Positions 13,810 through 35,349 of a stretch of DNA of 55,302 nt are shown here, one piece after another. A program made the translations under genes and the position numbers. Position 1 is the first letter of the stretch; each line of letters starts with the position of its first letter. This DNA comes from Campylobacterota bacterium (GTDB lineage Bacteria > Campylobacterota > Campylobacteria > Campylobacterales > Sulfurimonadaceae): positions 1-55,302 of the forward strand of contig VCAX01000002.1 in NCBI GenBank assembly GCA_013607665.1. Direction: 5' to 3'. Below the pieces are notes generated by a model. That model saw only the letters and a program-made list of their open reading frames with translations, had not been told where the DNA came from and did no database searches.

Positions 13810-14874
13810 ATGAAAGAAGGACAACTCGGTTACTATTTTATAGTTATGGCAAGTGTAATTATTGTTCTTGCCGGCGTGAAATTCGCTTCGGTCATTATAG
13901 TTCCTTTTCTACTCTCACTTTTTATAGCCATTATTCTCTCACCCATATATAATTTTTTTCGATCAAAACATATTCCTGATATTCTTGCTATAACTATTGT
14001 TATGATACTGTTTTTATTCTTTTTAGCACTCATTGCAAAACTTATAGGAAGCTCTGTGCATCAGTTTAGTGCAAATATTGATCTTTATGCCGACAAACTC
14101 TCTTTGTATTATGAGGACTTTGCAAAATTTTTACAGGGTTTTGGCATTGAGATACCGGCAAGTGAGATATCTAGTTTGATTAATTCTAAAGAGATTATGC
14201 GTTTTTCAACAGCAATCATCGAAGGTATCAGTTCAATTTTTAAAAATGGTTTTATTGTCATACTGACAGTGGTTTTCATGCTTTTGGAATCACAACATTT
14301 CATTGCTAAAATTGAAGCAACAGACAAAGAAAAAGCAACTATAAAACATATCAATCAAATCTTTTCTCAGATAAAAAGCTACATGGTTATAAAAGCACTC
14401 ATATCGGCTGTAACAGGTTTTATTATCTACCTGTCTCTTTCATTTATTGGTACTGATTATGCCTTTTTATGGGGTATGTTGGCATTTTTACTTAACTTCA
14501 TTCCAAATATCGGTTCTATCATTGCTGCTGTACCGGCCGTACTCATAACACTTGTTCAGCTGGGTGGGGTTTCAGTCTTACTTGTTTCTGCTTTGTATCT
14601 TATTGCTAATGTCGTGATTGGCTCGATCGTAGAGCCTAAAGTAATGGGAAAAGGTTTGGGACTTTCAACATTGGTTGTTTTTATCTCTTTAATCTTTTGG
14701 GGATGGCTGTTAGGCCTTGTCGGAATGCTACTCTCTATTCCACTCACTATTATGGCAAAAATCGTTTTTGCAGCTAATGAAAATACAAAATGGATCGCTA
14801 TACTGCTTGGAAGTGATGAAAATCTGCAAGAGAACAAACTGCTTACAAAAGTAAGAAAAATAAAAGAGCAATAA
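13810..14874 (+). CDS. AI-2E family transporter / PerM-like permease
   Basis: 354 aa, multiple TM segments; FLLNFIPNIGSIIAAVPAVLITLVQLG motif. Confidence 0.85.
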   Translation: MKEGQLGYYFIVMASVIIVLAGVKFASVIIVPFLLSLFIAIILSPIYNFFRSKHIPDILAITIVMILFLFFLALIAKLIGSSVHQFSANIDLYADKLSLYYEDFAKFLQGFGIEIPASEISSLINSKEIMRFSTAIIEGISSIFKNGFIVILTVVFMLLESQHFIAKIEATDKEKATIKHINQIFSQIKSYMVIKALISAVTGFIIYLSLSFIGTDYAFLWGMLAFLLNFIPNIGSIIAAVPAVLITLVQLGGVSVLLVSALYLIANVVIGSIVEPKVMGKGLGLSTLVVFISLIFWGWLLGLVGMLLSIPLTIMAKIVFAANENTKWIAILLGSDENLQENKLLTKVRKIKEQ

Positions 14875-14889
14875 AGCTATAATCAACGC

Positions 14890-14909
14890 ATGATTTTAAT
14901 GATAGATAA
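14890..14909 (+). repeat. Left attachment-site direct repeat (5' end of trpG)
   Basis: ATGATTTTAATGATAGATAA, identical to 35330-35349. Confidence 0.9.
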
Positions 14910-15083: not shown

Positions 15084-16205
15084 ATGTCTAGAATTAAGTC
15101 AAAAAAACATGTCGGGGTATATCAACATTTGTTAGCAAATGGAGATGTGTCTTATTACTATAACTACAAAGATATAGATGGTAAAAAAGTTTGGGTATGT
15201 GTTGGGAAAAAATCTGATGGATATTCAGAAAGAGATGCTGTAAGCCAAAGAAGAAAAGTATTAGCTGATATATCATATGCAGATGAGCCACTCTACATTA
15301 AAAAAAGGAAGCAACAAGAGATTATAAAAGTTAGAGAACTTGCTCAAAAATATTTTGATGAAAAAAAGGATATGAAGAATTATAGGGATGCATATTTGAA
15401 GTATTTAAATCAAATAGATCCTTTTTTTGGAGACAAAAATATTTATAAAGTAAAAGTTGAAGATGTACGAGATTTTAAAAAGTATCTTATAGAAAAGAAA
15501 AAGTACAAGCCAGCTTCTGTGAACTATTATCTTGCTTTACTAAGGGCAATTATAAATTATGCAATTAGCGAAGATGTTATAACTCTTGAAAAAAATCCTT
15601 CTGTTGAAGTGAAACTTTTAAAATTAAATAATGAAAGGCAAAGGATATTATCCGAAGATGAAATAGAATTTTTACTTGCAGCATTGATACACAATCCAAA
15701 AGCATATCTTTTTACATTAATTGGGATATGCACAGGGGCAAGACCACAAGCAATAATTAACTTAAAAAGAAAAGATATTGATGCAAGAAGCGATAAAATC
15801 TCTTTTATGCCTATGAAGAAGGGCCCTCAATATACGGTTTCTATCCATGAAAAACTGCAAGTAACACTATATGATTGGGTTAGAAGCTTGAATCCTGAAG
15901 ATTATATTTTCTTTAGAGAAAATCCTAAGATGGATAAAACGAAACACATTTCATATATTGCTATAAAAGCAAAAATCAAACCTATAATGGATTCTCTTTT
16001 TAATCAAGGGCTAGAAGCAAATGATAGAATCAATAAAGTTAGCTTGTATACATTAAGACACTCTTTTGGCTCATTATTGTCAGCTAAAGGGGCGAATGCT
16101 TTTGTAATAAAAAAATTAATGAATCACTCCAGTATAAAAACTACAGATCGATATATTAAAGTTCCACATGTAGAGGCTAAAAAATATATTGATGCAATTT
16201 TATAG
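15084..16205 (+). CDS. Tyrosine recombinase / integrase
   Basis: TGARPQAIINLKRKDI box; LYTLRHSFGSLLSAKGANAFVIKKLMNHSSIKTTDRYIKVP catalytic R...HxxR...H...Y. Confidence 0.93.
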   Translation: MSRIKSKKHVGVYQHLLANGDVSYYYNYKDIDGKKVWVCVGKKSDGYSERDAVSQRRKVLADISYADEPLYIKKRKQQEIIKVRELAQKYFDEKKDMKNYRDAYLKYLNQIDPFFGDKNIYKVKVEDVRDFKKYLIEKKKYKPASVNYYLALLRAIINYAISEDVITLEKNPSVEVKLLKLNNERQRILSEDEIEFLLAALIHNPKAYLFTLIGICTGARPQAIINLKRKDIDARSDKISFMPMKKGPQYTVSIHEKLQVTLYDWVRSLNPEDYIFFRENPKMDKTKHISYIAIKAKIKPIMDSLFNQGLEANDRINKVSLYTLRHSFGSLLSAKGANAFVIKKLMNHSSIKTTDRYIKVPHVEAKKYIDAIL

Positions 16206-16866: not shown

Positions 16867-17517
16867 ATGCAAAGAGAACTTGAGAGAGAACTAAAACAGT
16901 ACCCGTCAAGAATCATCGAACACGCTACACTCTCTCAAATTCTTTCAAATCTCGGCTATAGCAGGATAAATGACAAGATAGTCCAACTCAAAACCAAAGG
17001 GGTATTGACTGCCTTAAAAAGTGGTCTCTATCTTTACAATCCCGTATATGATGAATCATTGGTTTCAAAAGAGATTATTGCCAATCTGCTTTTGGGACCC
17101 TCATACATCTCCTTTGATTATGCACTCTGGTTTCACGGTCTCATCCCGGAAAGTGTAGAGACGATACAATCAGCCACAACGAAACGCTCCAAGTCGTACA
17201 ATACACCTCTTGGGGTCTTTAGCTACGGGCAGGTAAAAAAAGAGCTTTATGGTATTGCTATAGAGATACACAACTCCAAAAGTGGGAATTTTCTCATAGC
17301 ATCAAAAGAGAAAGCACTCTGTGATAAAGTCTATTATACCAAGGAGATGCCTATTAGAAGTAAAAGTGCAATGGTGGAGTTTTTAGAGGATGATCTCAGA
17401 ATTGATTTGGATGAGCTGGTCGATTCCGATATTAAGGTATTTCAAGAGTATTACAAAGTTACAAAATCAAAAAAAATTGCCCTGTTGCAAAAAATTATAG
17501 AGGAGTTGCAAGTATGA
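16867..17517 (+). CDS. AbiEi-family type IV antitoxin
   Basis: N-terminal winged-helix-like region; YISFDYALWFHGLIPESVETIQSATTKRSKSY, ASKEKALCDKVY; followed by AbiEii. Confidence 0.82.
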   Translation: MQRELERELKQYPSRIIEHATLSQILSNLGYSRINDKIVQLKTKGVLTALKSGLYLYNPVYDESLVSKEIIANLLLGPSYISFDYALWFHGLIPESVETIQSATTKRSKSYNTPLGVFSYGQVKKELYGIAIEIHNSKSGNFLIASKEKALCDKVYYTKEMPIRSKSAMVEFLEDDLRIDLDELVDSDIKVFQEYYKVTKSKKIALLQKIIEELQV

Positions 17518-18368
17518 GCATAATAGAGCAGATGCTGCAAAAATATAACCCACAGAGTCAAAATGAACTGATTAATGCACTCAAAGAGATATTTCAGAAG
17601 ATTACACTTCTTGGGCTTTACAGGGGTGATTTTTTCAAAGAGGCTGTATTTTACGGAGGTACATCTTTGAGAATACTCTACAGACTTGAGCGGTTTTCGG
17701 AAGATCTGGATTTTTCACTGCTCAAAAAAGATTCGCAGTTTGATATTGAAAAATATTTTCCATGCATTGAGAGTGAATTTGAAGCACTTGGTATCCCTGT
17801 ATCATTAAGTAAAAAGATTAAAAAAGGAGATGGCAATATAGATTCCGCTTTTTTGAAAAATGATACAGCCATCTACACACTTGGTATTGAGGCCAAAGGG
17901 ATAGAGAATATCCACTCTGGTGTAAAGCTCAAAATAAAAATAGAGGTCGATACCAATCCACCGCTAAAATTTCAGAGCGAATCAAAAACACTGCTGCTTC
18001 CGATAACTTTTAATGTCAGAACAATGACTCTTCCAAATCTTTATGCAGGCAAGATGCACGCACTCCTTTTTAGAGCTTGGAAAAACAGAGTTAAGGGAAG
18101 AGACTGGTTTGATTTTGAATGGTACGCTAAAAAAGGGGTGAAACTTAATCTTGAACATCTGTGTGAGCGGATGAGGGAGAGTGGTGATTTTAATGGAGAT
18201 ACTTTAACGCAAGAAGAGTTTGTATGTATGCTCAACGACAGAATAGAAAATCTCAATATCGAACAGGCAGTCAATGAAGTAAAACCGTTTGTAAAAGATC
18301 AAAGTGTCTTTGATTTTTGGTCAAGAGAGTATTTTAAACTTCTGGCTTCAAAAATAGAGTTTGTTTAA
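17514..18368 (+). CDS. AbiEii/AbiGii-family nucleotidyltransferase toxin
   Basis: FYGGTSLRILYRLERFSEDLDFSL nucleotidyltransferase motif; overlaps upstream antitoxin by 4 bp. Confidence 0.85.
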   Translation: MSIIEQMLQKYNPQSQNELINALKEIFQKITLLGLYRGDFFKEAVFYGGTSLRILYRLERFSEDLDFSLLKKDSQFDIEKYFPCIESEFEALGIPVSLSKKIKKGDGNIDSAFLKNDTAIYTLGIEAKGIENIHSGVKLKIKIEVDTNPPLKFQSESKTLLLPITFNVRTMTLPNLYAGKMHALLFRAWKNRVKGRDWFDFEWYAKKGVKLNLEHLCERMRESGDFNGDTLTQEEFVCMLNDRIENLNIEQAVNEVKPFVKDQSVFDFWSREYFKLLASKIEFV

Positions 18369-20432: not shown

Positions 20433-21080
20433 ATGAGGATAATTATGGCAAAAACTATCGGTTATATTCGAGTCAGTACAGACCAGCAAGATCTGCAAAA
20501 TCAACAACACTCTATTTTAGATTATGCAAATAAAAACTCACTTGGTAAAGTTAAGTTTATAGAAGTGAAGATGAGCAGTCGCAAAAAAGATGAAGATAGA
20601 AAAATTGATGAACTGTTTGAGTCTTTGCAAGCTGATGATCATTTAATAGTTTCGGAATTAAGCCGTATAGGTAGAAGTGTTGTCAATGTTGTAACGATTG
20701 TTAACAGACTCATAGCAAAAGGTGTAAACCTTCATATCCTCAAAGAACAGCTTTTTATTAAACCCAATGAGCAAAACCCTTTCACAGATTTTCAGATAAA
20801 TATCTTCTCAGCTTTTGCACAATTGGAGCGTGATCTTATAAGTAAAAGAACAAAAGAAGCTCTGCAAGCCAGAAAAGCCAAAGGGATTAAACTTGGTAAG
20901 CCTAAAGGTACCATTCAAGGTAGCATCTACGATAAAGATAGAGAGAAGATAAAAGAGTTGCATGAACTAGGAGTTTCCCTAACTAATATCTCTAAAAAAC
21001 ATTTAGGCTATGGAACTATCAAGAGTCTGAGTGAATATGTAAAAAACAAACTATACAAAGAGGTGAAAAATGACAAGTAG
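20433..21080 (+). CDS. Serine recombinase (resolvase/invertase family)
   Basis: TIGYIRVSTDQQDLQNQ catalytic serine region; LIVSELSRIGRS; AQLERDLISKRTKEALQARKAKGIKLGKPKG; likely start 20445. Confidence 0.92.
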   Translation: MRIIMAKTIGYIRVSTDQQDLQNQQHSILDYANKNSLGKVKFIEVKMSSRKKDEDRKIDELFESLQADDHLIVSELSRIGRSVVNVVTIVNRLIAKGVNLHILKEQLFIKPNEQNPFTDFQINIFSAFAQLERDLISKRTKEALQARKAKGIKLGKPKGTIQGSIYDKDREKIKELHELGVSLTNISKKHLGYGTIKSLSEYVKNKLYKEVKNDK

Positions 21081-21326: not shown

Positions 21327-23708
21327 ATGTCAAAAAAGAATTTAACAGAACGAGATATTTGTACAAAATATATAACTCCAGCACTAGTTGAATCTGGCTG
21401 GAATTTGCACTCTCAATTTAGAGAAGAAGTAACCTTTTTTACAAACGGTCGTATTTATGTTCATGGTAAAATGGTACGAAGAGGTGAGCAAAAAAGAGCT
21501 GACTATATTCTTTACTACAAGCCAAATATCCCTATAGCTATTATAGAAGCAAAAGATAATAAACACAGCATTGGTGATGGTATGCAACAGGGTCTAGGTT
21601 ATGCTGAAATTTTAGATATACCTTTTGTTTACAGTACAAACGGTGATGGTTTTTTGGAGCATGACCCTACATTAACTCATGGCATGCTTGAAAAAGAAAT
21701 ATCACTTAATAATTTTCCATCTCCAGACGAGCTTTGGCAAAGATATAAAAAATATAGAGGTATCGAGGAAGACGAAGCTGAAAAAGTAGCACTTTCCCCT
21801 TACTACATCGATGATCCAAAAAGAGAGCCAAGATATTATCAAAAAAATGCCATTAATAGAACTATAGAAGCTATTGCAAAAGGACAGAAAAAAATCTTGC
21901 TTGTAATGGCAACAGGTACAGGAAAAACATACACCGCATTTCAGATTATATACAGACTCTATAAATCAAAAAAAGCAAAAAGAATCCTTTTCTTAGCCGA
22001 TAGAAATATATTGGTAGATCAAACCAAGATAGGTGATTTTAAACACTTTGGTGACAAGATGACTAAAATTACAAATAGAACTATTGATAAATCTTTTGAA
22101 ATCTATCTTTCACTTTATCAGGCTATTACTGGCAACAGTGAAGAAAAGAAGATATTTAAAGAGTTTAGTCGTGACTTTTTTGATCTCATCGTCATAGATG
22201 AGGCTCACCGAGGAAGTGCAGCGGAAGATAGCCAATGGAGGGAAATATTAGAGTATTTTGATAGTGCTGTACAGATAGGTCTTACGGCAACTCCAAAAGA
22301 GACAAAATATGTGAGTAACATTTCATACTTTGGCGATCCAGTTTATACTTACTCTTTAAAACAAGGAATAGATGACGGGTTTTTAGCTCCGTACAAAGTG
22401 ATCCGTTTAGCACTTGATAGAGATGTTGAGGGGTGGAGACCTTATAATGGGCAAACAGATGATAAAGGTGAAGCTATTGAAGATAGAGAATACAATACAA
22501 AAGACTTTGATAAAAACCTTATTCTTACTCAAAGAACCAATCTTGTCGCAAAAAAAATAACTCAATATCTAAGCGAAAATGATCCATATATGAAAACCAT
22601 TGTCTTTTGTGTAGATATAGATCATGCAGAAAGGATGAGACAAGCTCTTGTAAATGCTAACCCTGCTATGGCGAAAGAGAGCAGAAAATATGTTATGCGT
22701 ATTACAGGAGACAATGAAGAAGGAAAAAAAGAGCTAGATAACTTCATAGACCCAGAATCTACTTATCCAGTCATAGCTACTACTTCAAAACTTATGACGA
22801 CTGGTGTAGATGCTCAAACTACAGGACTCATTGTACTTGATAGCAATATAGGTTCAATGACAGAGTTTAAACAGATAATCGGTAGAGGTACAAGGATAAA
22901 TGAGACTTATGGGAAATTATACTTTACTATTATGGATTTTAGAAATGTTACAAGACATTTTGCTGATTCTGATTTTGACGGTGATCCAGTTCAGATATAT
23001 GAGCCAAAAGACGATGATCCTATTACACCTCCAGAAGAAGAGATTCCAGAAGAGTTTAGTGATACTTTAAATGAGCTAAGTGAGCCTTATGGTGAAACTA
23101 CAGATGTATCTATAACAGACGGAGAAGACGGCACTTCAAAATTTACTCGCCATATAGTAAGCGGTGTAAAAGTAAAAGTATTAAACAAGCGTGTGCAGTA
23201 CATCGGAGCGGATGGGAAGCTTATCACGGAGTCACTCGTGGACTATAGCCGTAAAAATATCAAAAACAGATATGCAAGTTTGGATGAGTTTTTACAAGAG
23301 TGGAGTATGGCAGAGCAAAAAGAAGCTATCATTAAAGCTCTAAGCGATCAAGGTGTGTTTTTTGATGAACTTGAGAGTGAAGTAGGCAAAGAGGGTCTCG
23401 ATCCATTTGATCTTATATGTCATATAGCATTTGATAGACCAGCTCTTACTCGAGCCGAACGAGCAGGAAAATTAAAGCAAAATAGCTATTTTAATAAATA
23501 CTCAGATAAAGCAAAAGCAGTTATAAATGCTCTTTTAGATAAATATACAGAATCAGGAATAGAGAGTATCGAAGATATTGCAGTGCTAAAAGTACCACCA
23601 TTTAATGAGTATGGTACGATGACAGAACTTACGAAACTTTTTGGTGGTGGAAGAGCTGGCTATCAGTCTCTTATCAAAGAGATAGAGCAACATTTATATG
23701 CATCTTGA
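21327..23708 (+). CDS. hsdR: Type I restriction endonuclease subunit HsdR (EcoEI-like)
   Basis: PD-(D/E)xK-like region RADYILYYKPNIPIAIIEAKDNK; Walker A MATGTGKTYTAF; DEAH box IDEAHRGSA. Confidence 0.93.
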   Translation: MSKKNLTERDICTKYITPALVESGWNLHSQFREEVTFFTNGRIYVHGKMVRRGEQKRADYILYYKPNIPIAIIEAKDNKHSIGDGMQQGLGYAEILDIPFVYSTNGDGFLEHDPTLTHGMLEKEISLNNFPSPDELWQRYKKYRGIEEDEAEKVALSPYYIDDPKREPRYYQKNAINRTIEAIAKGQKKILLVMATGTGKTYTAFQIIYRLYKSKKAKRILFLADRNILVDQTKIGDFKHFGDKMTKITNRTIDKSFEIYLSLYQAITGNSEEKKIFKEFSRDFFDLIVIDEAHRGSAAEDSQWREILEYFDSAVQIGLTATPKETKYVSNISYFGDPVYTYSLKQGIDDGFLAPYKVIRLALDRDVEGWRPYNGQTDDKGEAIEDREYNTKDFDKNLILTQRTNLVAKKITQYLSENDPYMKTIVFCVDIDHAERMRQALVNANPAMAKESRKYVMRITGDNEEGKKELDNFIDPESTYPVIATTSKLMTTGVDAQTTGLIVLDSNIGSMTEFKQIIGRGTRINETYGKLYFTIMDFRNVTRHFADSDFDGDPVQIYEPKDDDPITPPEEEIPEEFSDTLNELSEPYGETTDVSITDGEDGTSKFTRHIVSGVKVKVLNKRVQYIGADGKLITESLVDYSRKNIKNRYASLDEFLQEWSMAEQKEAIIKALSDQGVFFDELESEVGKEGLDPFDLICHIAFDRPALTRAERAGKLKQNSYFNKYSDKAKAVINALLDKYTESGIESIEDIAVLKVPPFNEYGTMTELTKLFGGGRAGYQSLIKEIEQHLYAS

Positions 23709-23745: not shown

Positions 23746-25833
23746 ATGTTAACAAGAGAAAAAGCACAACAGTATTTAAAAGACTCTCTTCAAAATGAAA
23801 AGGCTGATTTTAGAGAAGATCAGTATGAAGCTATTGATACGGTTGTAAACCAGAGAAAAAAAGTTCTTGTTGTTCAAAAGACTGGCTGGGGTAAGAGTAG
23901 TGTGTATTTTATTTCTACCAAGTTTTTAAGAGAGCAAGGAAGTGGACTTACAATTATTATCTCTCCTTTGTTAGCATTGATGAGAAACCAAATAGATTCA
24001 GCTAAAAAACTTGGACTGAATGTTGTAACAATTAATTCATCCAACACGAATGATTGGGCTTTTGCAAAAGCTCAAATTTTACAAAATAAAGTTGATGCAT
24101 TACTTGTTTCTCCAGAAAGATTGGCAAATGAAAACTTTATGCAAGAGATATTGGAACCAATTTCTGGAAGTATTGGACTATTTGTAATCGATGAAGCACA
24201 CTGTATTAGTGATTGGGGTCATGATTTTCGACCTGATTATAAAAGAATTACAAATATATTAAAACAAATGCCTGCAAACACACCTATTTTAGCAACGACT
24301 GCAACAGCTAATGATAGAGTGATTACTGATATTGAAAATCAAATAAGTGGACTTATAACCATTAGAGGAAGTCTTAAAAGAGAAAGTCTTTCTTTGAATA
24401 ATCTTAGACTTCCTGAGCAATCTCATAGACTTGCTTGGCTTCTTGAACATTTACCCTCATTTAAAGGTTCGGGAATTGTATATGTTTTAACACAAAGAGA
24501 TGCAAAAGTAGTTGCACAGTGGCTTAGTCAAAATGGTATTACAGCAAGTGCTTATTTTAGTGGTGTTGAGCATGATGATTTTGAAAATAGTGATGAGTAT
24601 AGAATTTTTTTAGAGAATCAACTTATCAATAATGAGATAAAAGTTTTGGTTGCTACATCAGCTCTTGGAATGGGATTTGATAAGAGTGATTTAGGTTTTG
24701 TAATTCATTATCAAGCTCCAGGATCAATTATAAGTTATTATCAACAAGTTGGTCGTGCAGGTCGTGGTATAGATGAAGCCTATGGTATTTTACTCAGTGG
24801 ACATGAAGATGATGATATTCATGATTTTTTTAGAGGCTCATCTTTTCCAAAAGAAGAAAATATCACTTTAGTATTAGAGCATTTGGATAATAGTGATGGG
24901 TTGTCTATAGTGGAGTTACAAAAAGAGCTTAACTTAACTCAAGGAGAAGTTGAAAAGACATTAAAGTATCTTAATGTAGAAACTCCTTCTCCTGTAACCA
25001 GGATAGGCTCAAAATGGTATAGAACACCAACTAAATATGTTCATGATAGAGAAAAAATCGAAGCTATTTTAGCTATCAGGCAATCTGAATGGGATGAGAT
25101 GCAAAGTTATTTAGATACTGATGAATGTTTAATGTTATTTTTGCAAAATGCCTTAAATGATCTAAATCCTCAGATATGTGGAAAATGTGCTAATTGCTTA
25201 ACCCCATTAAGTGGTACATTCTCCCACGAAAATGGTTTGAAAGCCGCCGACTTCTTGAAAAAAAGCGACATAGTTTTTAGTCCTAAAAAGCAAGTAAAAC
25301 TGGATGCTCTAAGTAAATATGGCATTAGAGGTAATATCAGATCAGAATTAAGAGCAGAAGAGGGAAGAATTTTATCTAGATGGGAAGATGCTGGATGGGG
25401 AAGAGTTGTTGCAAAAGATAAACATCAAGGTAAATTTTCAGATCAGCTTGTAGATGCATTTGTAAAGATGATTAAAAAATGGAATCCTTCTCCTGTACCA
25501 CAGTGGGTTACATGTATTCCATCTCTAAATCATCCAACTTTAGTCCCAAATTTTGCACAAAAAGTAGCAAAAAAACTAAATTTACCCTTTATTGCAGCTG
25601 TGAAAAAGATAAAACAAAATCAAGCTCAAAAAATGATGAACAATGCTTATCATCAAGCCAAAAATCTTGATGGAGTCTTTGAAGTGGAAGATAATATACC
25701 TGATAAGGCTGTTCTATTGATAGATGATATCATTGATTCTGGTTGGACAGTCACGGTTGCCTCGGCTCTTTTAAAGCAAAAGGGAAGTGGTGAAGTATTT
25801 CCTGCTTCACTCGCCACAACTGGAAAAATGTAA
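23746..25833 (+). CDS. RecQ-like helicase fused to C-terminal phosphoribosyltransferase domain
   Basis: Walker A-like QKTGWGKSSVYF, DEAH in FVIDEAHCISDWGHDFRPDYKRI, GRAGRG; Cys cluster CGKCANC; C-term AVLLIDDIIDSGWTVTVASALLKQKG PRPP-binding motif. Confidence 0.88.
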   Translation: MLTREKAQQYLKDSLQNEKADFREDQYEAIDTVVNQRKKVLVVQKTGWGKSSVYFISTKFLREQGSGLTIIISPLLALMRNQIDSAKKLGLNVVTINSSNTNDWAFAKAQILQNKVDALLVSPERLANENFMQEILEPISGSIGLFVIDEAHCISDWGHDFRPDYKRITNILKQMPANTPILATTATANDRVITDIENQISGLITIRGSLKRESLSLNNLRLPEQSHRLAWLLEHLPSFKGSGIVYVLTQRDAKVVAQWLSQNGITASAYFSGVEHDDFENSDEYRIFLENQLINNEIKVLVATSALGMGFDKSDLGFVIHYQAPGSIISYYQQVGRAGRGIDEAYGILLSGHEDDDIHDFFRGSSFPKEENITLVLEHLDNSDGLSIVELQKELNLTQGEVEKTLKYLNVETPSPVTRIGSKWYRTPTKYVHDREKIEAILAIRQSEWDEMQSYLDTDECLMLFLQNALNDLNPQICGKCANCLTPLSGTFSHENGLKAADFLKKSDIVFSPKKQVKLDALSKYGIRGNIRSELRAEEGRILSRWEDAGWGRVVAKDKHQGKFSDQLVDAFVKMIKKWNPSPVPQWVTCIPSLNHPTLVPNFAQKVAKKLNLPFIAAVKKIKQNQAQKMMNNAYHQAKNLDGVFEVEDNIPDKAVLLIDDIIDSGWTVTVASALLKQKGSGEVFPASLATTGKM

Positions 25834-26969
25834 TGAATGATCTAAGTTTAAATGCACAAGCAATTATTTTATTAACAGCTTATTTTAACAAGGGGGATAA
25901 ACCTCTCACAATAATGGAGTACTCAAAATTTGCGTCATGGCTTCTTCAAAACAATATGAAACCATCAGATCTTTTAGAATTAAATACTCGGGAAATTTTA
26001 GAAAATTGGGATGATACAAAAATTACACAAGATCGAATACTGTCTCTATTAGCAAGAGGAAACGCAATGGCAATTTCTCTTCAAAAATGGCAAAACTGTG
26101 GAATTTGGATCATTACAAGAGCAGATTCAGAGTATCCAGTAAGATTAAAAAAGAGATTAGGACAAAAGGCTCCGCCAATATTATATGGTGCAGGTAATAA
26201 AAAAATACTCAATACCAAAGGTGTCGCTATTATTGGTTCAAGAGATGCATCCTCGGATGATTTAGACTTTACATTTAAATTAGGAGAAAAACTTGCACAA
26301 TCAGGCTATAGTGTTGTTTCAGGTGCTGCAAGAGGAATTGACGAATCCTCAATGCTTGGATCAATAAATGCTGATGGAACAACTATTGGTGTAGTCGCTG
26401 ATGCCTTGATGCAAAAAGTGCTATCTAAAAAATATAGAGATGCAATACGAAATAATAATTTGGTATTAATTAGCCCATATTATCCAGATGCAAGATTTAG
26501 TGCTGGTAATGCAATGGGCAGAAATAAATATATTTATGTTTTGGCAGAATCTTCGATTGTGATTCATTCAGGACTCAAGGGTGGTACATGGGAAGGTGCA
26601 AAAGAGAACTTAAAAAATGGTTGGGTAAGCCTTTTTGTAAAGCAAAGTGAGGATACCAATACAGGAAATCAGAAGCTTCTTGAAATGGGTGGTTTAGAGT
26701 TAAAAGATTTAAATTCTTTGGATTATTTATTTACTCTAAATCAAGATATTAAAACAGCTACAGTTGCTAAAAAAGAGACATTGGATAAAAGAATTTTAGA
26801 CTTAATATCTTTAGAAAAATTAACAGTTAAAGAGATTGCAGAAAATCTTAAAGAAACTCAAAATATAATTAAAAAAACTATAGATGAACTCTTAAAATCT
26901 GGAGATGTTGAAAAACATCCAAATAGACCTTTACGCTTTAGTAAAGCTATAAAATTACCTGGACTATAA
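25833..26969 (+). CDS. DprA-like (Rossmann) protein
   Basis: GVAIIGSRDASSDDLDFTFKLGEKLAQSGYSVVSGAARGIDESSMLGSINADGTTIGVVADAL; C-term helical HTH-like tail; TAATG coupling to the upstream helicase. Confidence 0.87.
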   Translation: MNDLSLNAQAIILLTAYFNKGDKPLTIMEYSKFASWLLQNNMKPSDLLELNTREILENWDDTKITQDRILSLLARGNAMAISLQKWQNCGIWIITRADSEYPVRLKKRLGQKAPPILYGAGNKKILNTKGVAIIGSRDASSDDLDFTFKLGEKLAQSGYSVVSGAARGIDESSMLGSINADGTTIGVVADALMQKVLSKKYRDAIRNNNLVLISPYYPDARFSAGNAMGRNKYIYVLAESSIVIHSGLKGGTWEGAKENLKNGWVSLFVKQSEDTNTGNQKLLEMGGLELKDLNSLDYLFTLNQDIKTATVAKKETLDKRILDLISLEKLTVKEIAENLKETQNIIKKTIDELLKSGDVEKHPNRPLRFSKAIKLPGL

Positions 26970-26995: not shown

Positions 26996-28426
26996 ATGGC
27001 AGATATTTCAAATATCGTAAAATCAATTCAAAACATTATGAGAACAGATACGGGTGTTGATGGAGATGCTCAAAGAATATCCCAACTGGTGTGGATGCTT
27101 TTTTTAAAAGTATTTGATGCAAAAGAGGAAGAGTTTGAACTAGAAGATGAAAATTATAAGTCTCCGATCCCCGAAAAACTTAGATGGAGAAGTTGGGCTA
27201 CTGATGATGAGGGGCTTACAGGTGAAGAGCTTATGCTTTTTATCAATAATGATCTTTTTCCTACACTAAAAGAGCTTGATATCACCACATCAAATGCTTA
27301 TGCTCCACTTGTTAAGGGTATGTTTGAAGATGCCTATAATTATATGAAGTCTGGAACACTTTTAAGACAAGTAGTAAATAAACTTGAAGAGATACATTTT
27401 GATAACCTATCAGATAGACATCTTTTTAACGATATGTATGAACAGATACTAAAAGATCTTCAAAGTGCAGGAAATGCAGGAGAGTACTACACACCTAGAG
27501 CTGTGACAGAGTTTATAGTGCAAATGGTCGACCCAAAACTTGGTGAGAAAGTGTTTGACCCAGCATGTGGAACAGGAGGCTTTCTTATTAGCTCCATAAA
27601 CCATATCATGAAAAGCGATGTAAAAACAGCAGAAGATAAAAAAACATTGGAGCAGACGATTCAAGGGATAGAGAAAAAACAGCTCCCTTACATGCTATGT
27701 TTAACAAACCTTATACTTCACGATATAGAAACGCCAAATATCAGACACGATAACTCACTTTCATACCCCCTAAAAGACATCACTCCAAATGAGAGAGTAG
27801 ATTGTATCGTAGCAAATCCACCTTTTGGAGGAACAGAAGAGCAAGGTATAGAAAACAACTTCCCAGCAAGCTACCGTACAAGGGAGACGGCAGACCTCTT
27901 TTTACTCTTATTTATCCAGATGCTAAAACCAAGAGGAAGAGCTGGAATAGTGCTTCCAGATGGTACACTTTTTGGTGATGGTGTAACAGCAAGGATAAAA
28001 GAGAAACTATTTGCTGAATGTAACCTCCACACCATAGTAAGACTGCCAAACGGGATATTTGCTCCCTATACTGACATAAACACAAACCTACTTTTCTTTA
28101 CAAAAGGTGAGCCAACGAAAGAGATATGGTACTATGAGCAGCCACTCCCACAAGGGTACAAAAAATACACAAAAACGAAACCTGTAAAATTACAAGACTT
28201 TGATGAATTGAAAAAATGGTGGAATAAAAGAAGCGAAAATGAACAGGCTTGGAAAGTAAGCATCGATACTATAAAAGCGAATAACTTCAACCTTGATGTT
28301 AAAAATCCGCATAAAGATGAAGTAGAGGAGGAACTAACTACAAGTGAAATTATAGAGAAAATAGAAACTTCGATGAGCAAAAGTGCGGAGTTGTTAGAAC
28401 AAGTTAAAAAAGAGGTTCTAAATTAA
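26996..28426 (+). CDS. hsdM: Type I DNA methyltransferase subunit HsdM
   Basis: FDPACGTGGFLISSINHI SAM motif; NPPF (VDCIVANPPFGG) adenine MTase motif. Confidence 0.94.
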   Translation: MADISNIVKSIQNIMRTDTGVDGDAQRISQLVWMLFLKVFDAKEEEFELEDENYKSPIPEKLRWRSWATDDEGLTGEELMLFINNDLFPTLKELDITTSNAYAPLVKGMFEDAYNYMKSGTLLRQVVNKLEEIHFDNLSDRHLFNDMYEQILKDLQSAGNAGEYYTPRAVTEFIVQMVDPKLGEKVFDPACGTGGFLISSINHIMKSDVKTAEDKKTLEQTIQGIEKKQLPYMLCLTNLILHDIETPNIRHDNSLSYPLKDITPNERVDCIVANPPFGGTEEQGIENNFPASYRTRETADLFLLLFIQMLKPRGRAGIVLPDGTLFGDGVTARIKEKLFAECNLHTIVRLPNGIFAPYTDINTNLLFFTKGEPTKEIWYYEQPLPQGYKKYTKTKPVKLQDFDELKKWWNKRSENEQAWKVSIDTIKANNFNLDVKNPHKDEVEEELTTSEIIEKIETSMSKSAELLEQVKKEVLN

Positions 28427-29727
28427 TGAGTTTGAATATACAAGCAATAAGCTCATTTTTAACAGAGCGAAAAGAACGCCTTAAACCAGAAGAAGCCAAT
28501 AAGCTCAACTTAAAACGAATTGGAAAAATAGACTTTAGTGGACAAATTCACTTAGTAGAAAATAAACCTACAAAAACAAATATGATAATTGTCAAAAAAA
28601 GGGATTTAGTAATCTCTGGTATAAATGTAGCCAAGGGAGCATTGGCGGTTTATGAAGATGATGAAGATGTGATTGCAACTATTCATTATTCTGCTTATAG
28701 TTTTAATAAAGAAAAAATAGATATAAATTTTTTAAAATGGTTTTTAAAAAGTCCAGCTTTTATAGATGCTCTTGAAGCACAAACAGGTGGAGGAATAAAA
28801 ACTGAGATTAAAGCTAAAAAGTTTTTATCTTTAAAGATATATGTTCCTACATTAGCTGAGCAAAAAAATATTGAACTGCACCTTAATAAAATTGAAGAAA
28901 AGTATAATCAACTATCAGAAGAACTTAAAACTCAATCAGATTTAATATTAAAACTTAAAAGTTCAATTTTAAGTGATGCAGTAAGTGGGAAACTAGTTCC
29001 ACAAGATCCAAATAATGAAAGTGCAGAAGTCTTGCTACAGAAGATAAAAGCCGAAAAAGAGAAGCGCATAAAAGAAGGAAAAATAAAAAAACAAAAACCT
29101 CTACCACCAATTAGTGAAGATGAAGTACCTTATGAACTCCCAGATGGCTGGGTGTGGTGTAGATTAAGAGATGTTTGTAAACATATTACGGACGGAGAAC
29201 ATCAAACACCACCTAGAATAAGTTTTGGTAAAAAACTATTATCAGCCAAAAATGTTCGTGATGGCTTTTTAGATTATGATAATTGTGATTACATTTCTGA
29301 GGAACATTATGAAAAAGCTAGAAATAGATGTTTACCTGAAATAGGTGATTTACTTATTGTATCTGTTGGTGGTACTATCGGTAGAGCAAGCTTAGTCACA
29401 AAAAACAGTGACTTTGCTTTAGTTAGAAGTGTTGCATTAATTAAGCCATTACTAATTTCTTCTGAATACTTGAGAGTTGTTTTAAATTCAAAACTTTTGC
29501 AAGATATGATAAATTTAACTAAAAGAGGTGGAGCACAGCCTTGTTTATATTTAACATCTATAAATCAGTTTTTATTCCCTTTAGCATCTCTTGAAGAACA
29601 AAAACGAATAGTTAAAAAAGTAGAAAAGCTAATGGCTAGATGTGATGCATTGGAAATTGAAGTAAAAAAAAGTAAAATAGAGACAGAAAAACTAATGCAG
29701 CGTGTACTTAAAGAAGCGTTTAAATAA
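28426..29727 (+). CDS. hsdS: Type I specificity subunit HsdS
   Basis: Two TRD-like halves; SAEVLLQKIKAEKEKRIKEGKIKKQKPLPPI conserved spacer; LPDGWVWCRLRDVCKHITDGEHQTPP; TAATG overlap with hsdM. Confidence 0.92.
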   Translation: MSLNIQAISSFLTERKERLKPEEANKLNLKRIGKIDFSGQIHLVENKPTKTNMIIVKKRDLVISGINVAKGALAVYEDDEDVIATIHYSAYSFNKEKIDINFLKWFLKSPAFIDALEAQTGGGIKTEIKAKKFLSLKIYVPTLAEQKNIELHLNKIEEKYNQLSEELKTQSDLILKLKSSILSDAVSGKLVPQDPNNESAEVLLQKIKAEKEKRIKEGKIKKQKPLPPISEDEVPYELPDGWVWCRLRDVCKHITDGEHQTPPRISFGKKLLSAKNVRDGFLDYDNCDYISEEHYEKARNRCLPEIGDLLIVSVGGTIGRASLVTKNSDFALVRSVALIKPLLISSEYLRVVLNSKLLQDMINLTKRGGAQPCLYLTSINQFLFPLASLEEQKRIVKKVEKLMARCDALEIEVKKSKIETEKLMQRVLKEAFK

Positions 29728-29741
29728 AGAGGAGTTAAAGC

Positions 29742-31010
29742 ATGAATCGTTGGCAACAAAAATTTGATGAACATCCAATACATGAAACTTTAAAACAGTT
29801 AGAGAGTTATGTATCAAAACAATTTGATGATATAAAAGAAGATGAGACCCAAGAAAGAAGAAGATTTCTAAAAATCATTTCTACATATCAAGAGTTATTA
29901 TCTGAGCTCGACCCTGAACTGGTTCCAATAAATCAATTAGATACATTAAATGCTGGGCTAAGACATCAAAATATTTGGAATCAGGTTGCATCATATTCTG
30001 GAAATCAAAATAGCGGACATCTTGTACATGCCAACGATCATTTATCAAATCAATTAACTCAATTATCATTACTCTTGGCAATTGCAAAAAAAACAAAATT
30101 TATAAAGCCTTTGAAAAAGGTTGAAACTCTTGTAGATGATTTTTCACAAACTATCTCATCTCAAAAAACCAAACTTCAATTAGAACTAAAAGAATTAACT
30201 GATTCACTAAATACAAATAAACAAGAATTAGTGAAGCTTGAGCAACTTATAGAAACAAGAAAAAATGAAGCCGATAGGCTAATGTCTCAGTGGCAAAGCC
30301 AGTTTTCAGAATCTCAAGAAAGACGAAATACTGAATATGCTAACTGGTCTAAAAAACTTGATGAGCAAGCTCAAGAGGAGTTGGAACTTATTCTGAAAAA
30401 AAGTGACAGTGAATTAGCAAGTCATCAAAAATTGTTTGAAGAAAAAATCAAAGAGATTATTGACGATGGAAATGAAAAACATCAGGCAATACTAGAGCTT
30501 TATGAACTTACTGCTGGTGATAGTGTAGGGGCGGGATATATCAAAAATGCTGATAATGAAATGAAGCAAGCAAATATATGGAGACGGATATCTATAGGAT
30601 TTATTTCTTTAACTGTTGTATGGTTGGGCTTTGTCTATTTTTGCAATGCAGGAGCATTTGAATTTTGTAAAATTGGAGTAGAAGATTTCTGGGCAAAAAT
30701 TATTACTGCTTTCTCATTAACAGGTGTAATGTTATATGGTGCAGCTTATTCTTCTCAACAATCAACAAAACATAGGAACAATGAAAAACGAGCCAGATGG
30801 TTTGCTCTTGAGATTAAGGCATTTGATCCATTTATTAGTTCCTTACAAGAAGAACAACGGCATGAACTGAAGAAACAGTTAAGTGAAAGGTTGTTTGGTC
30901 AGAATGAGCATAATAATGTTAAAGATAGTAAGATTATAGATGAACATGCCTATAAAACGGTTATTGATGGGATTGTAAATGTGATTTCTAAAATTCCAAA
31001 AGGTGGTTAA
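29742..31010 (+). CDS. Coiled-coil protein with two predicted TM segments (accessory)
   Basis: 422 aa; long charged helical region followed by hydrophobic ISIGFISLTVVWLGFVYF and IITAFSLTGVMLYGAAY; 15 bp after hsdS. Confidence 0.7.
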   Translation: MNRWQQKFDEHPIHETLKQLESYVSKQFDDIKEDETQERRRFLKIISTYQELLSELDPELVPINQLDTLNAGLRHQNIWNQVASYSGNQNSGHLVHANDHLSNQLTQLSLLLAIAKKTKFIKPLKKVETLVDDFSQTISSQKTKLQLELKELTDSLNTNKQELVKLEQLIETRKNEADRLMSQWQSQFSESQERRNTEYANWSKKLDEQAQEELELILKKSDSELASHQKLFEEKIKEIIDDGNEKHQAILELYELTAGDSVGAGYIKNADNEMKQANIWRRISIGFISLTVVWLGFVYFCNAGAFEFCKIGVEDFWAKIITAFSLTGVMLYGAAYSSQQSTKHRNNEKRARWFALEIKAFDPFISSLQEEQRHELKKQLSERLFGQNEHNNVKDSKIIDEHAYKTVIDGIVNVISKIPKGG

Positions 31011-31012
31011 AG

Positions 31013-31861
31013 ATGAAAAACATTAATTTTAATCTATATCGGTATCAGATTTTGCCAAAAGATAGATATTTTCAAGGTGATCTATTTGGCGAGATTAAAA
31101 GTGTAGAAGATTTGATCGATAAGAAAAATGATTTGTTTTATAGCTCTATTAAAACTATAACTAATTGGAAAGGTAAGAAAAGTTCTCTCAAGGGACAGCT
31201 TGAGTATGACAAAGATAATTTTTTACTTTTTCGATTTGCTCCCAAAAGAACTACAAAAATAGAAAATGAAAATTTTGAGGAAGAAGAGTTTGAAAATTGG
31301 CCATCTATTTTAGTTGCTATTTGGAATCACCCACAAAAACAAATGATTATGATACAAGATAGGAAAAAAGCATTTTCAGATACGAAAGCAGTTTTGAAAA
31401 TTTTAATAGAATCAATAAACAACGCTTTAGAATCAAAGCAGCTAAAACTTTATGGCGAACCAATTTTCCATAAAGAAGCTTTTTGGAATATTATAGAACA
31501 GTATGATAGAAAGATAAAAAATATAAAGTTTGAACTTATTACTCCAAATATGGCAAATATATCTGGAGTTTTAAGTGATGATCTTAAAAACTTAGCAAAA
31601 GGGACAAATACTGCCAAAACATTGTTAGAAATAGATGCCGATGATGACTCAACTCTTCATATAGATAAGCAAAATAAACAAGTAGGGGATTTAGTTGATT
31701 ATGCTAGTGAAGGAGGGGGTAATATCTCTTTAAAAGCTCAAGGTATTAAAAAAAGAATCCAAACTGCAAATGCTGTAAAATCAGTAGAGATAGGGGAGAT
31801 CGAAATTTCAGGTAATAATGTTGAGAGAATTGCAGAGATATTAAAAAGAGTATTAGAATGA
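31013..31861 (+). CDS. Accessory protein of unknown family
   Basis: 282 aa, no motif recognised with confidence; overlaps next gene by 4 bp. Confidence 0.65.
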   Translation: MKNINFNLYRYQILPKDRYFQGDLFGEIKSVEDLIDKKNDLFYSSIKTITNWKGKKSSLKGQLEYDKDNFLLFRFAPKRTTKIENENFEEEEFENWPSILVAIWNHPQKQMIMIQDRKKAFSDTKAVLKILIESINNALESKQLKLYGEPIFHKEAFWNIIEQYDRKIKNIKFELITPNMANISGVLSDDLKNLAKGTNTAKTLLEIDADDDSTLHIDKQNKQVGDLVDYASEGGGNISLKAQGIKKRIQTANAVKSVEIGEIEISGNNVERIAEILKRVLE

Positions 31862-32295
31862 AAAATAATATCATTTTCAATATTTTTCTTTCAATAGGTG
31901 CTGGCTATTTACTCACGGAGTTACAGTCATTGTTGGGTACAATATATTTAACAAGCTTTTTAAAACAAAATCTTATTACTCTGCTAGTCGCTTTGATAGC
32001 TATAAATTCTGCTACATTGAGTATTGTATTGACAAAAGTGAGAGAACTTATAGATAAAAGTGGACAGCAGGGAGTGTTTGAAAATACAAAAAGTCAGATG
32101 ATTTTGTCGGTTAACGAGCAAGTTATACTTATTGTTGTAGCTATGTTGTTGTTAATAGTTCAAGATTCTGATTTTATAAAGTCACATATAGAATATGCAA
32201 GCTTTTTAAATGTATCTATTATTGGATGTTTTGTATATGCATTGAGAATTCTGCATGACACAGCTAAAAGTGTTTTTGTGATTTTGGATTATTGA
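31858..32295 (+). CDS. Small four-TM membrane protein (accessory)
   Basis: 145 aa with four hydrophobic segments; ATGA overlap with upstream gene. Confidence 0.65.
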   Translation: MKNNIIFNIFLSIGAGYLLTELQSLLGTIYLTSFLKQNLITLLVALIAINSATLSIVLTKVRELIDKSGQQGVFENTKSQMILSVNEQVILIVVAMLLLIVQDSDFIKSHIEYASFLNVSIIGCFVYALRILHDTAKSVFVILDY

Positions 32296-32313
32296 CAAAG
32301 GAGATAGTGAGAA

Positions 32314-32922
32314 ATGAACTTTCAATTTAAAAATTGGAAAGCTTTTAGAGAACAGTTGAAGTCACAAAACATTAAGATAGCAACTTTTGATTTTGTGTAT
32401 GAAAAATGTGAGTTTAAAATCATATATTCTATAGAACAAAATGCTTTTTATATTGCTAAACGAGGTATGCAAACAGTATTTGTTTTATTTTTAGATTGGT
32501 ATAAAATTACAGATAGAATAAAGAAAGATGCATACGACCAATTAAAGATTTGTAAAGACCTGCCATTTGAACCTCAAAAGCCATATAATCCATTTGATTT
32601 TTTATTGGCATTAGATAATCACTTAAAAGAAAATGTTAAATTTAAAAAAACAACCAAAACAGAATATTTTACAACAACTAAAAAAGCTATCCCAGATGAA
32701 GAAAAAATATATTTTCAAAGATGGATTCCTCATCTAAATGATAATAAAAATGTAACTGGAAAGAACCTTGAAAAAGTTAAAAATATTTTAGGATTTCGTT
32801 ATGCAACTTTTTGCAGAGAGAATAATGTAAGTGTGGGGTTTACAAATATACCAAATGATTTATCTTTTGAAGTTATTGAAGATCTTCAAAAAGTTTTAAA
32901 TGAGCAGAAGAAAAAGTTATGA
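32314..32922 (+). CDS. Accessory protein of unknown family
   Basis: 202 aa, last gene of the hsd-linked operon. Confidence 0.6.
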   Translation: MNFQFKNWKAFREQLKSQNIKIATFDFVYEKCEFKIIYSIEQNAFYIAKRGMQTVFVLFLDWYKITDRIKKDAYDQLKICKDLPFEPQKPYNPFDFLLALDNHLKENVKFKKTTKTEYFTTTKKAIPDEEKIYFQRWIPHLNDNKNVTGKNLEKVKNILGFRYATFCRENNVSVGFTNIPNDLSFEVIEDLQKVLNEQKKKL

Positions 32923-35329: not shown

Positions 35330-35349
35330 ATGATTTTAATGATAGATAA
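35330..35349 (+). repeat. Right attachment-site direct repeat (reconstituted 5' end of trpG)
   Basis: ATGATTTTAATGATAGATAA identical to 14890-14909. Confidence 0.9.

Follow-up and report, generated by a model that had tools for sequence, protein, structure and literature searches.

The window (the whole 55,302-nucleotide stretch of DNA that was analysed) possesses an operon with the gene order hsdR-psyrT-psyrA-hsdM-hsdS-X-Y-Z-W, in which X, Y, Z and W denote the four genes that trail hsdS. The operon is situated between two direct repeats, together with genes of recombination and defence. The features are as follows.

14890-14909, + strand: left direct repeat ATGATTTTAATGATAGATAA, candidate att site, near a tyrosine integrase
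15084-16205: tyrosine integrase (PF00589, 1.9e-17), adjoining the left repeat
17514-18368: AbiEii, with a probable AbiEi partner at 16867
20433-21080: Mpi-type serine recombinase, inside the island
21327-23708, + strand: hsdR, type I restriction subunit (PADLOC, E = 0, 1145.6 bits)
23746-25833, + strand: psyrT (PADLOC PsyrT, 1.2e-291)
25833-26969, + strand: psyrA (PADLOC PsyrA, 3.8e-132)
26996-28426, + strand: hsdM, type I methyltransferase (PADLOC, 1.2e-214)
28426-29727, + strand: hsdS, type I specificity subunit, directly 5' of X (PADLOC, 3.2e-87)
29742-31010, + strand: X, 422 aa, coiled-coil protein with a C-terminal transmembrane (TM) region, member of an hsdS-linked family; separate module
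31013-31861, + strand: Y, 282 aa, soluble, candidate RexA-like sensor
31858-32295, + strand: Z, 145 aa, four-TM membrane protein, candidate RexB-like effector
32314-32922, + strand: W, 202 aa, DUF6037 (PF19503) protein; separate accessory gene
33311: excisionase-like HTH, inside the island
33589: DUF3987 protein, inside the island
35330-35349, + strand: right copy of ATGATTTTAATGATAGATAA, at the trpG start codon

The four open reading frames proposed in the initial annotation were all confirmed in the sequence with their coordinates and lengths, as was the ATGA overlap of Y and Z. The spacing is 14 bp between hsdS and X, 2 bp between X and Y, -4 bp between Y and Z and 18 bp between Z and W, and W is separated from the next ORF by a gap of 388 bp. 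From this close packing, X, Y, Z and W are probably co-transcribed with hsdS. Promoter- and terminator-like matches around the operon were at or below background in the scans. Y and Z showed 91-93% and 90-92% identity, respectively, in two other Arcobacteraceae genomes, X showed 70% identity in genome G157 and W is intact in Malaciobacter halophilus. The conservation of all four ORFs in other genomes supports their being real coding genes. The four TM segments claimed for Z were recovered by a hydropathy scan, three of them at the strict cut-off and the first one in close orthologs. The two segments claimed for X stood only in part, as one is clear (residues 283-301) and the other (about 315-335) falls short of the threshold.

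The region between the repeats spans 14890-35349 (about 20.4 kb). The direct repeats are of 20 bp, and the trpG start codon used as the target is not destroyed. In three genomes of the same genus the empty arrangement was found, with a relative of the gene ending at 14874 placed directly before trpG. The repeats, the integrase and the empty trpG site in the relatives therefore indicate that the four genes ride on an integrative defence island, where Y-Z is carried alongside type I restriction-modification (R-M), PsyrTA and AbiE. Neither the island boundaries nor the presence of psyrTA inside the hsd operon is mentioned in the initial annotation of the four genes. PsyrTA was recognised by the adjacent PsyrT (helicase/phosphoribosyltransferase) followed by a DprA-like PsyrA, and the complete pair sits between hsdR and hsdM. 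Genome G005 has the same arrangement plus a 538-aa HNH protein, while M. halophilus has no psyrTA between hsdR and hsdM.

The four genes had been described as a single cassette, but comparison of gene content distinguished three separable modules, X, Y-Z and W, with independent distributions. In M. halophilus the order is hsdR-hsdM-hsdS-Y-Z-W, with neither X nor psyrTA. In G005 it is (hsdR)-psyrT-psyrA-HNH-hsdM-hsdS-kwaA-kwaB-Y-Z-(PDC-S32-like protein), without X or W, and Kiwa fills the slot of X (L024:8476-12428) immediately 5' of Y-Z. G157 contains X without Y-Z, in a defence island that also encodes a ThsB-type TIR protein. In G288 an hsdS-domain gene is directly followed by Y-Z. It could be argued that the four genes encode one multi-protein accessory complex of type I R-M and form a co-evolved cassette, as they are tightly packed on one strand and as hsdS lies directly or nearly directly before Y-Z in four genomes (window, M. 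halophilus, G005 and G288). Such a complex is very improbable, however, because phages and other genomes carry Y-Z but neither X nor W, X stands beside hsdS in Vibrio and several Campylobacterota with no Y-Z pair and alone in G157, and a DUF6037 gene without Y-Z is present in G069. These independent distributions have already largely refuted the idea of one complex. The operon is better described as a set of modular cargo slots round a type I R-M core, filled by psyrTA, HNH, X or Kiwa, Y-Z, and DUF6037 or a PDC-S32-type protein. The HsdS of M. halophilus (L005:8097-9989) is 630 aa long and has a C-terminal extension of ~200 aa where a separate X would be. The protein encoded 3' of Y-Z in G005 is 367 aa long, with the PADLOC PDC-S32 match at its C-terminus.

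None of the four families had been recognised with confidence in the initial annotation; W is now assigned to DUF6037, X to an hsdS-linked family, and Y-Z is considered to be Rex-like. W matched DUF6037 (PF19503) in Pfam at 4.5e-10, with 40.3 bits against a gathering cut-off of 28.8, and it follows Y-Z in M. halophilus too. A literature search for DUF6037 found nothing. Relatives of X have hsd genes on one or both sides in Vibrio crassostreae and in genomes G099, G054, G292, G255, G329 and G243, and among the last four a Methylase_S match was obtained for the hsdS-type neighbour. Elsewhere the relatives of X are solo genes. The recurring linkage with hsdS suggests that X is anchored in the membrane and serves type I R-M as an accessory or back-up effector. 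Matches of X to LeoBC, DUF3112, JetC or assorted coiled-coil chains were judged to be coiled-coil/TM artefacts. In G329 (L104) the X relative is directly followed by hsdS, and an RloB gene (PF13707, 2.6e-42) is situated upstream. One X subfamily, from G239, G355 and G275 (L102, L103 and L105), occupies a conserved chromosomal position with no adjoining hsd genes, and one of its copies is broken by a stop. This subfamily may serve a non-defence role.

Y and Z had been proposed as a soluble protein with a small multi-TM partner, and they proved to be a real two-gene unit whose coupling holds across the readable loci. At every locus with a readable downstream flank, Z is placed directly 3' of Y. 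The two genes overlap by 4-26 bp everywhere except L028, where a 2-bp gap is present, and the partners in the Z position are 4-TM genes of 144-161 aa. Relatives of Y were found in prophages of Vibrio and enterobacteria, in phages of the P2-like and Mu-like kinds, in E. coli and at type I R-M loci. An E. coli prophage carries one beside the integrase at icd, and a relative of this pair is present in 41 of 5,426 E. coli genomes; looking the pair up by accession gave no result. Further relatives occur in a lambdoid STEC prophage, in a Vibrio Vinavirales element and in IMG/VR contigs that, from their neighbouring genes, were read as lambdoid, Mu-like and P2-like. In six viral contigs a repressor on the same strand lies immediately upstream of Y-Z. 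It is a CI-like Peptidase_S24 protein in L012, L036, L051, L053 and L054 (1.6e-13 to 1.5e-18) and a 199-aa HTH protein in the Mu-like element L115. As five distinct repressors are present in the six contigs, the link is a positional one; the copy in the window is itself not repressor-adjacent. The relatives are thus located in prophage immunity regions, phage accessory slots and defence islands, in agreement with the earlier suggestion of a membrane-effector anti-phage design, for which RexAB is the best mechanistic analogue. Homology of the genes to housekeeping or conjugation functions was looked for and none was found.

The anatomy of RexAB, a soluble gene of ~280 aa followed by a four-TM gene of ~145 aa, is also that of Y-Z. 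Lambda RexA and RexB (PF15969 and PF15968) are encoded in the same order, with 279 and 144 aa against 282 and 145 aa for Y and Z. The TM segments predicted for Z together with a close ortholog are 4-22, 39-57, 82-100 and 114-132, compared to 8-26, 48-66, 84-102 and 116-134 in RexB. Charge counts of Y-Z are similar to those of lambda Rex, and the repressor-adjacent pairs of the viral contigs reproduce the lambda cI-rexA-rexB layout. The anatomical match to Rex is therefore close in sizes, order, coupling, TM spacing, charge and repressor-adjacent location.

This closeness in anatomy is not accompanied by detectable sequence similarity to lambda RexA or RexB. Y gave no match at E<=1 to the RexA profiles (PF15969 and PADLOC RexA) and Z gave none to the RexB profiles (PF15968 and PADLOC RexB), while the lambda Rex proteins, taken as positive control, matched in both Pfam and PADLOC. 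BLASTP was null for RexA/RexB homology. HMMER against Pfam, PADLOC, NCBIfam and PHROGs and HHalign with ever larger alignments all failed to detect a direct relation. In HHalign, Y against RexA reached a probability of 0.25% and E 0.24, and 83 out of 200 block-shuffled controls did as well, so that the score represents chance. For Z against RexB an E of 0.04-0.05 was obtained. The mismatch of Z and RexB is uninformative, because two Y subfamilies whose Y proteins match one another at 7.6e-21 have Z partners that do not match either (E 0.056). A search of Campylobacterota genomes with PF15969 was uninformative, as the control genomes themselves were left without a match, and a PDB sequence search with Y profiles gave nothing usable. 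A visual agreement of motifs (FPS...EPL / WPS...EPI; DILTEHYLSEKGHLSA / DLVDYASEGGGNISLKA) was without statistical support and was not used as evidence. On sequence grounds Y-Z cannot be called Rex, and family membership is not established by profiles.

The AlphaFold (AF2) model of Y, built on a 15-sequence alignment, had a pLDDT of 82.8 and a pTM of 0.82; a single-sequence model was poor (pLDDT 34.5) and was discarded. Residues 144-242 of the model show a beta-alpha-beta-alpha-beta-alpha-beta pattern, which is compatible with the four-stranded dimerisation domain of RexA. The order of elements in the model is compatible with the RexA two-domain fold, composed of a split globular domain and the dimerisation domain. 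The first-ranked PDB match in Foldseek was 7r5s chain L, with a marginal E of 2.8e-3 and a low whole-chain TM-score. By the chain naming we take this chain to be human CENP-L. In BFVD, RdgC was found at rank 7, a weak match (E 0.014) again with low whole-chain TM-score. Above it were one weak match and five unnamed phage proteins of similar size, the best with E 6.4e-20. These five (A0A8S5PCY0, A0A8S5QGP5, A0A8S5S8L2, A0A8S5MSR5 and A0A6J5Q1Z2; 277-322 aa, E 6e-20 to 4e-7) share the predicted fold of Y and are candidate further Rex-like sensors. The RexA structure 8twq was absent among the best 50 PDB matches listed; RexA was crystallised in a closed state (PMC11077077), and for a protein of two domains this state may be of importance. 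The structural relatives named for RexA in the paper on its structure are RdgC and Iml3/Chl4 (PMC11077077), and Iml3 is the CENP-L ortholog (PMC5777823). Through CENP-L and RdgC, the model of Y points, weakly, to a kinship with Rex.

Other arrangements of the same parts can be imagined for Y and Z. The pair could be Kiwa-like or unrelated to both systems, with Z as membrane sensor, Y as DNA-acting effector and no kinship to Rex. Kiwa is built of the same kind of parts, a small multi-TM protein (KwaA) and a soluble partner (KwaB), and in G005 a true Kiwa pair (KwaA 2.7e-40, KwaB 4.7e-78) lies immediately 5' of Y-Z. This very co-occurrence presents the two as distinct pairs, however, and the order of genes is reversed in Kiwa. 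There is no profile match either way between Y or Z and KwaA or KwaB in PADLOC, HHalign gave E 0.38 both for Y against KwaB and for Z against KwaA, and the repressor-adjacent prophage location of Y-Z fits Rex. A Kiwa-like or unrelated pair is unlikely. Quite unlikely, too, is a reversed Rex logic or a toxin-antitoxin pair, in which a toxic Y would be held at the membrane by Z until infection releases it. A precedent for such logic is found in gp30/gp31 of mycobacteriophage Butters (PMC12894663), and the tight Y/Z overlap gives a fixed stoichiometry. In most Rex-type systems described, though, the membrane protein is the effector (PMC12894663), and G333 (L027) possesses an intact Y and a frame-broken Z, with an adjoining AAA ATPase gene, which is hard to reconcile with a Y that is toxic without Z.

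Taken together, Y-Z is probably a RexAB-type two-gene phage-exclusion (abortive-infection) module, and X and W are probably accessory modules of their own that share its transcription unit. The mechanism proposed here follows the Rex model given for lambda and Pseudomonas putida RexAB (PMC12894663). Y would act in the cytoplasm as a sensor that binds DNA, with two domains folded as in RexA/RdgC, and Z would be the effector, placed in the inner membrane with four helices. In an infected cell, Y may detect an abnormal intermediate of DNA or of protein and DNA and activate Z, which would then permeabilise or depolarise the membrane so that growth stops before phage release. The module would circulate in temperate phages and would here, with PsyrTA and AbiE, back up type I restriction as a second line of defence. 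A wider reading is possible, though doubtful. Y-Z may represent a large branch of Rex-type systems that has not been listed so far, with a RexA/RdgC/CENP-L-fold sensor and a fast-evolving 4-TM effector, and that moves back and forth between the immunity regions of prophages and the type I restriction operons of hosts. In these operons it might be functionally coupled to restriction, for instance by sensing DNA ends or recombination intermediates from HsdR cleavage or blockage, so that failed restriction would lead to membrane-mediated abortive infection.

Knowledge of RexAB goes back 70 years, yet the RexAB-like systems described number only five, and the trigger of RexAB is still a question (PMC12894663). 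The new feature of the present locus is that a divergent Rex-like pair stands outside a prophage, within a type I R-M operon of modular build. If Y-Z is Rex-like, its copies in E. coli prophages, several phage groups and R-M islands would provide tractable models for the RexAB trigger. It would also suggest that many Rex systems have been missed by sequence searches and would show that chromosomal defence islands recruit exclusion modules from prophages.

Among the known systems, RdgC resembles Y by its fold match at rank 7 in the phage library; it is a host protein which forms ring dimers and has no membrane partner, whereas Y has Z. Lambda rexAB is situated under the prophage maintenance promoter, whereas the Y-Z pair of the window lies in a host restriction operon. 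RexABpp of P. putida prophage P1 (PP_5643/PP_5644; PMC12894663) differs in size when compared by description, as RexApp is larger than Y (37.5 kDa with tag) and RexBpp has at least 181 residues against 145 in Z (PMC12894663). Like Y-Z, RexABpp is a Rex-type pair which BLAST failed to recognise, possesses a 4-TM effector and is located 3' of a CI-like repressor (PMC12894663).
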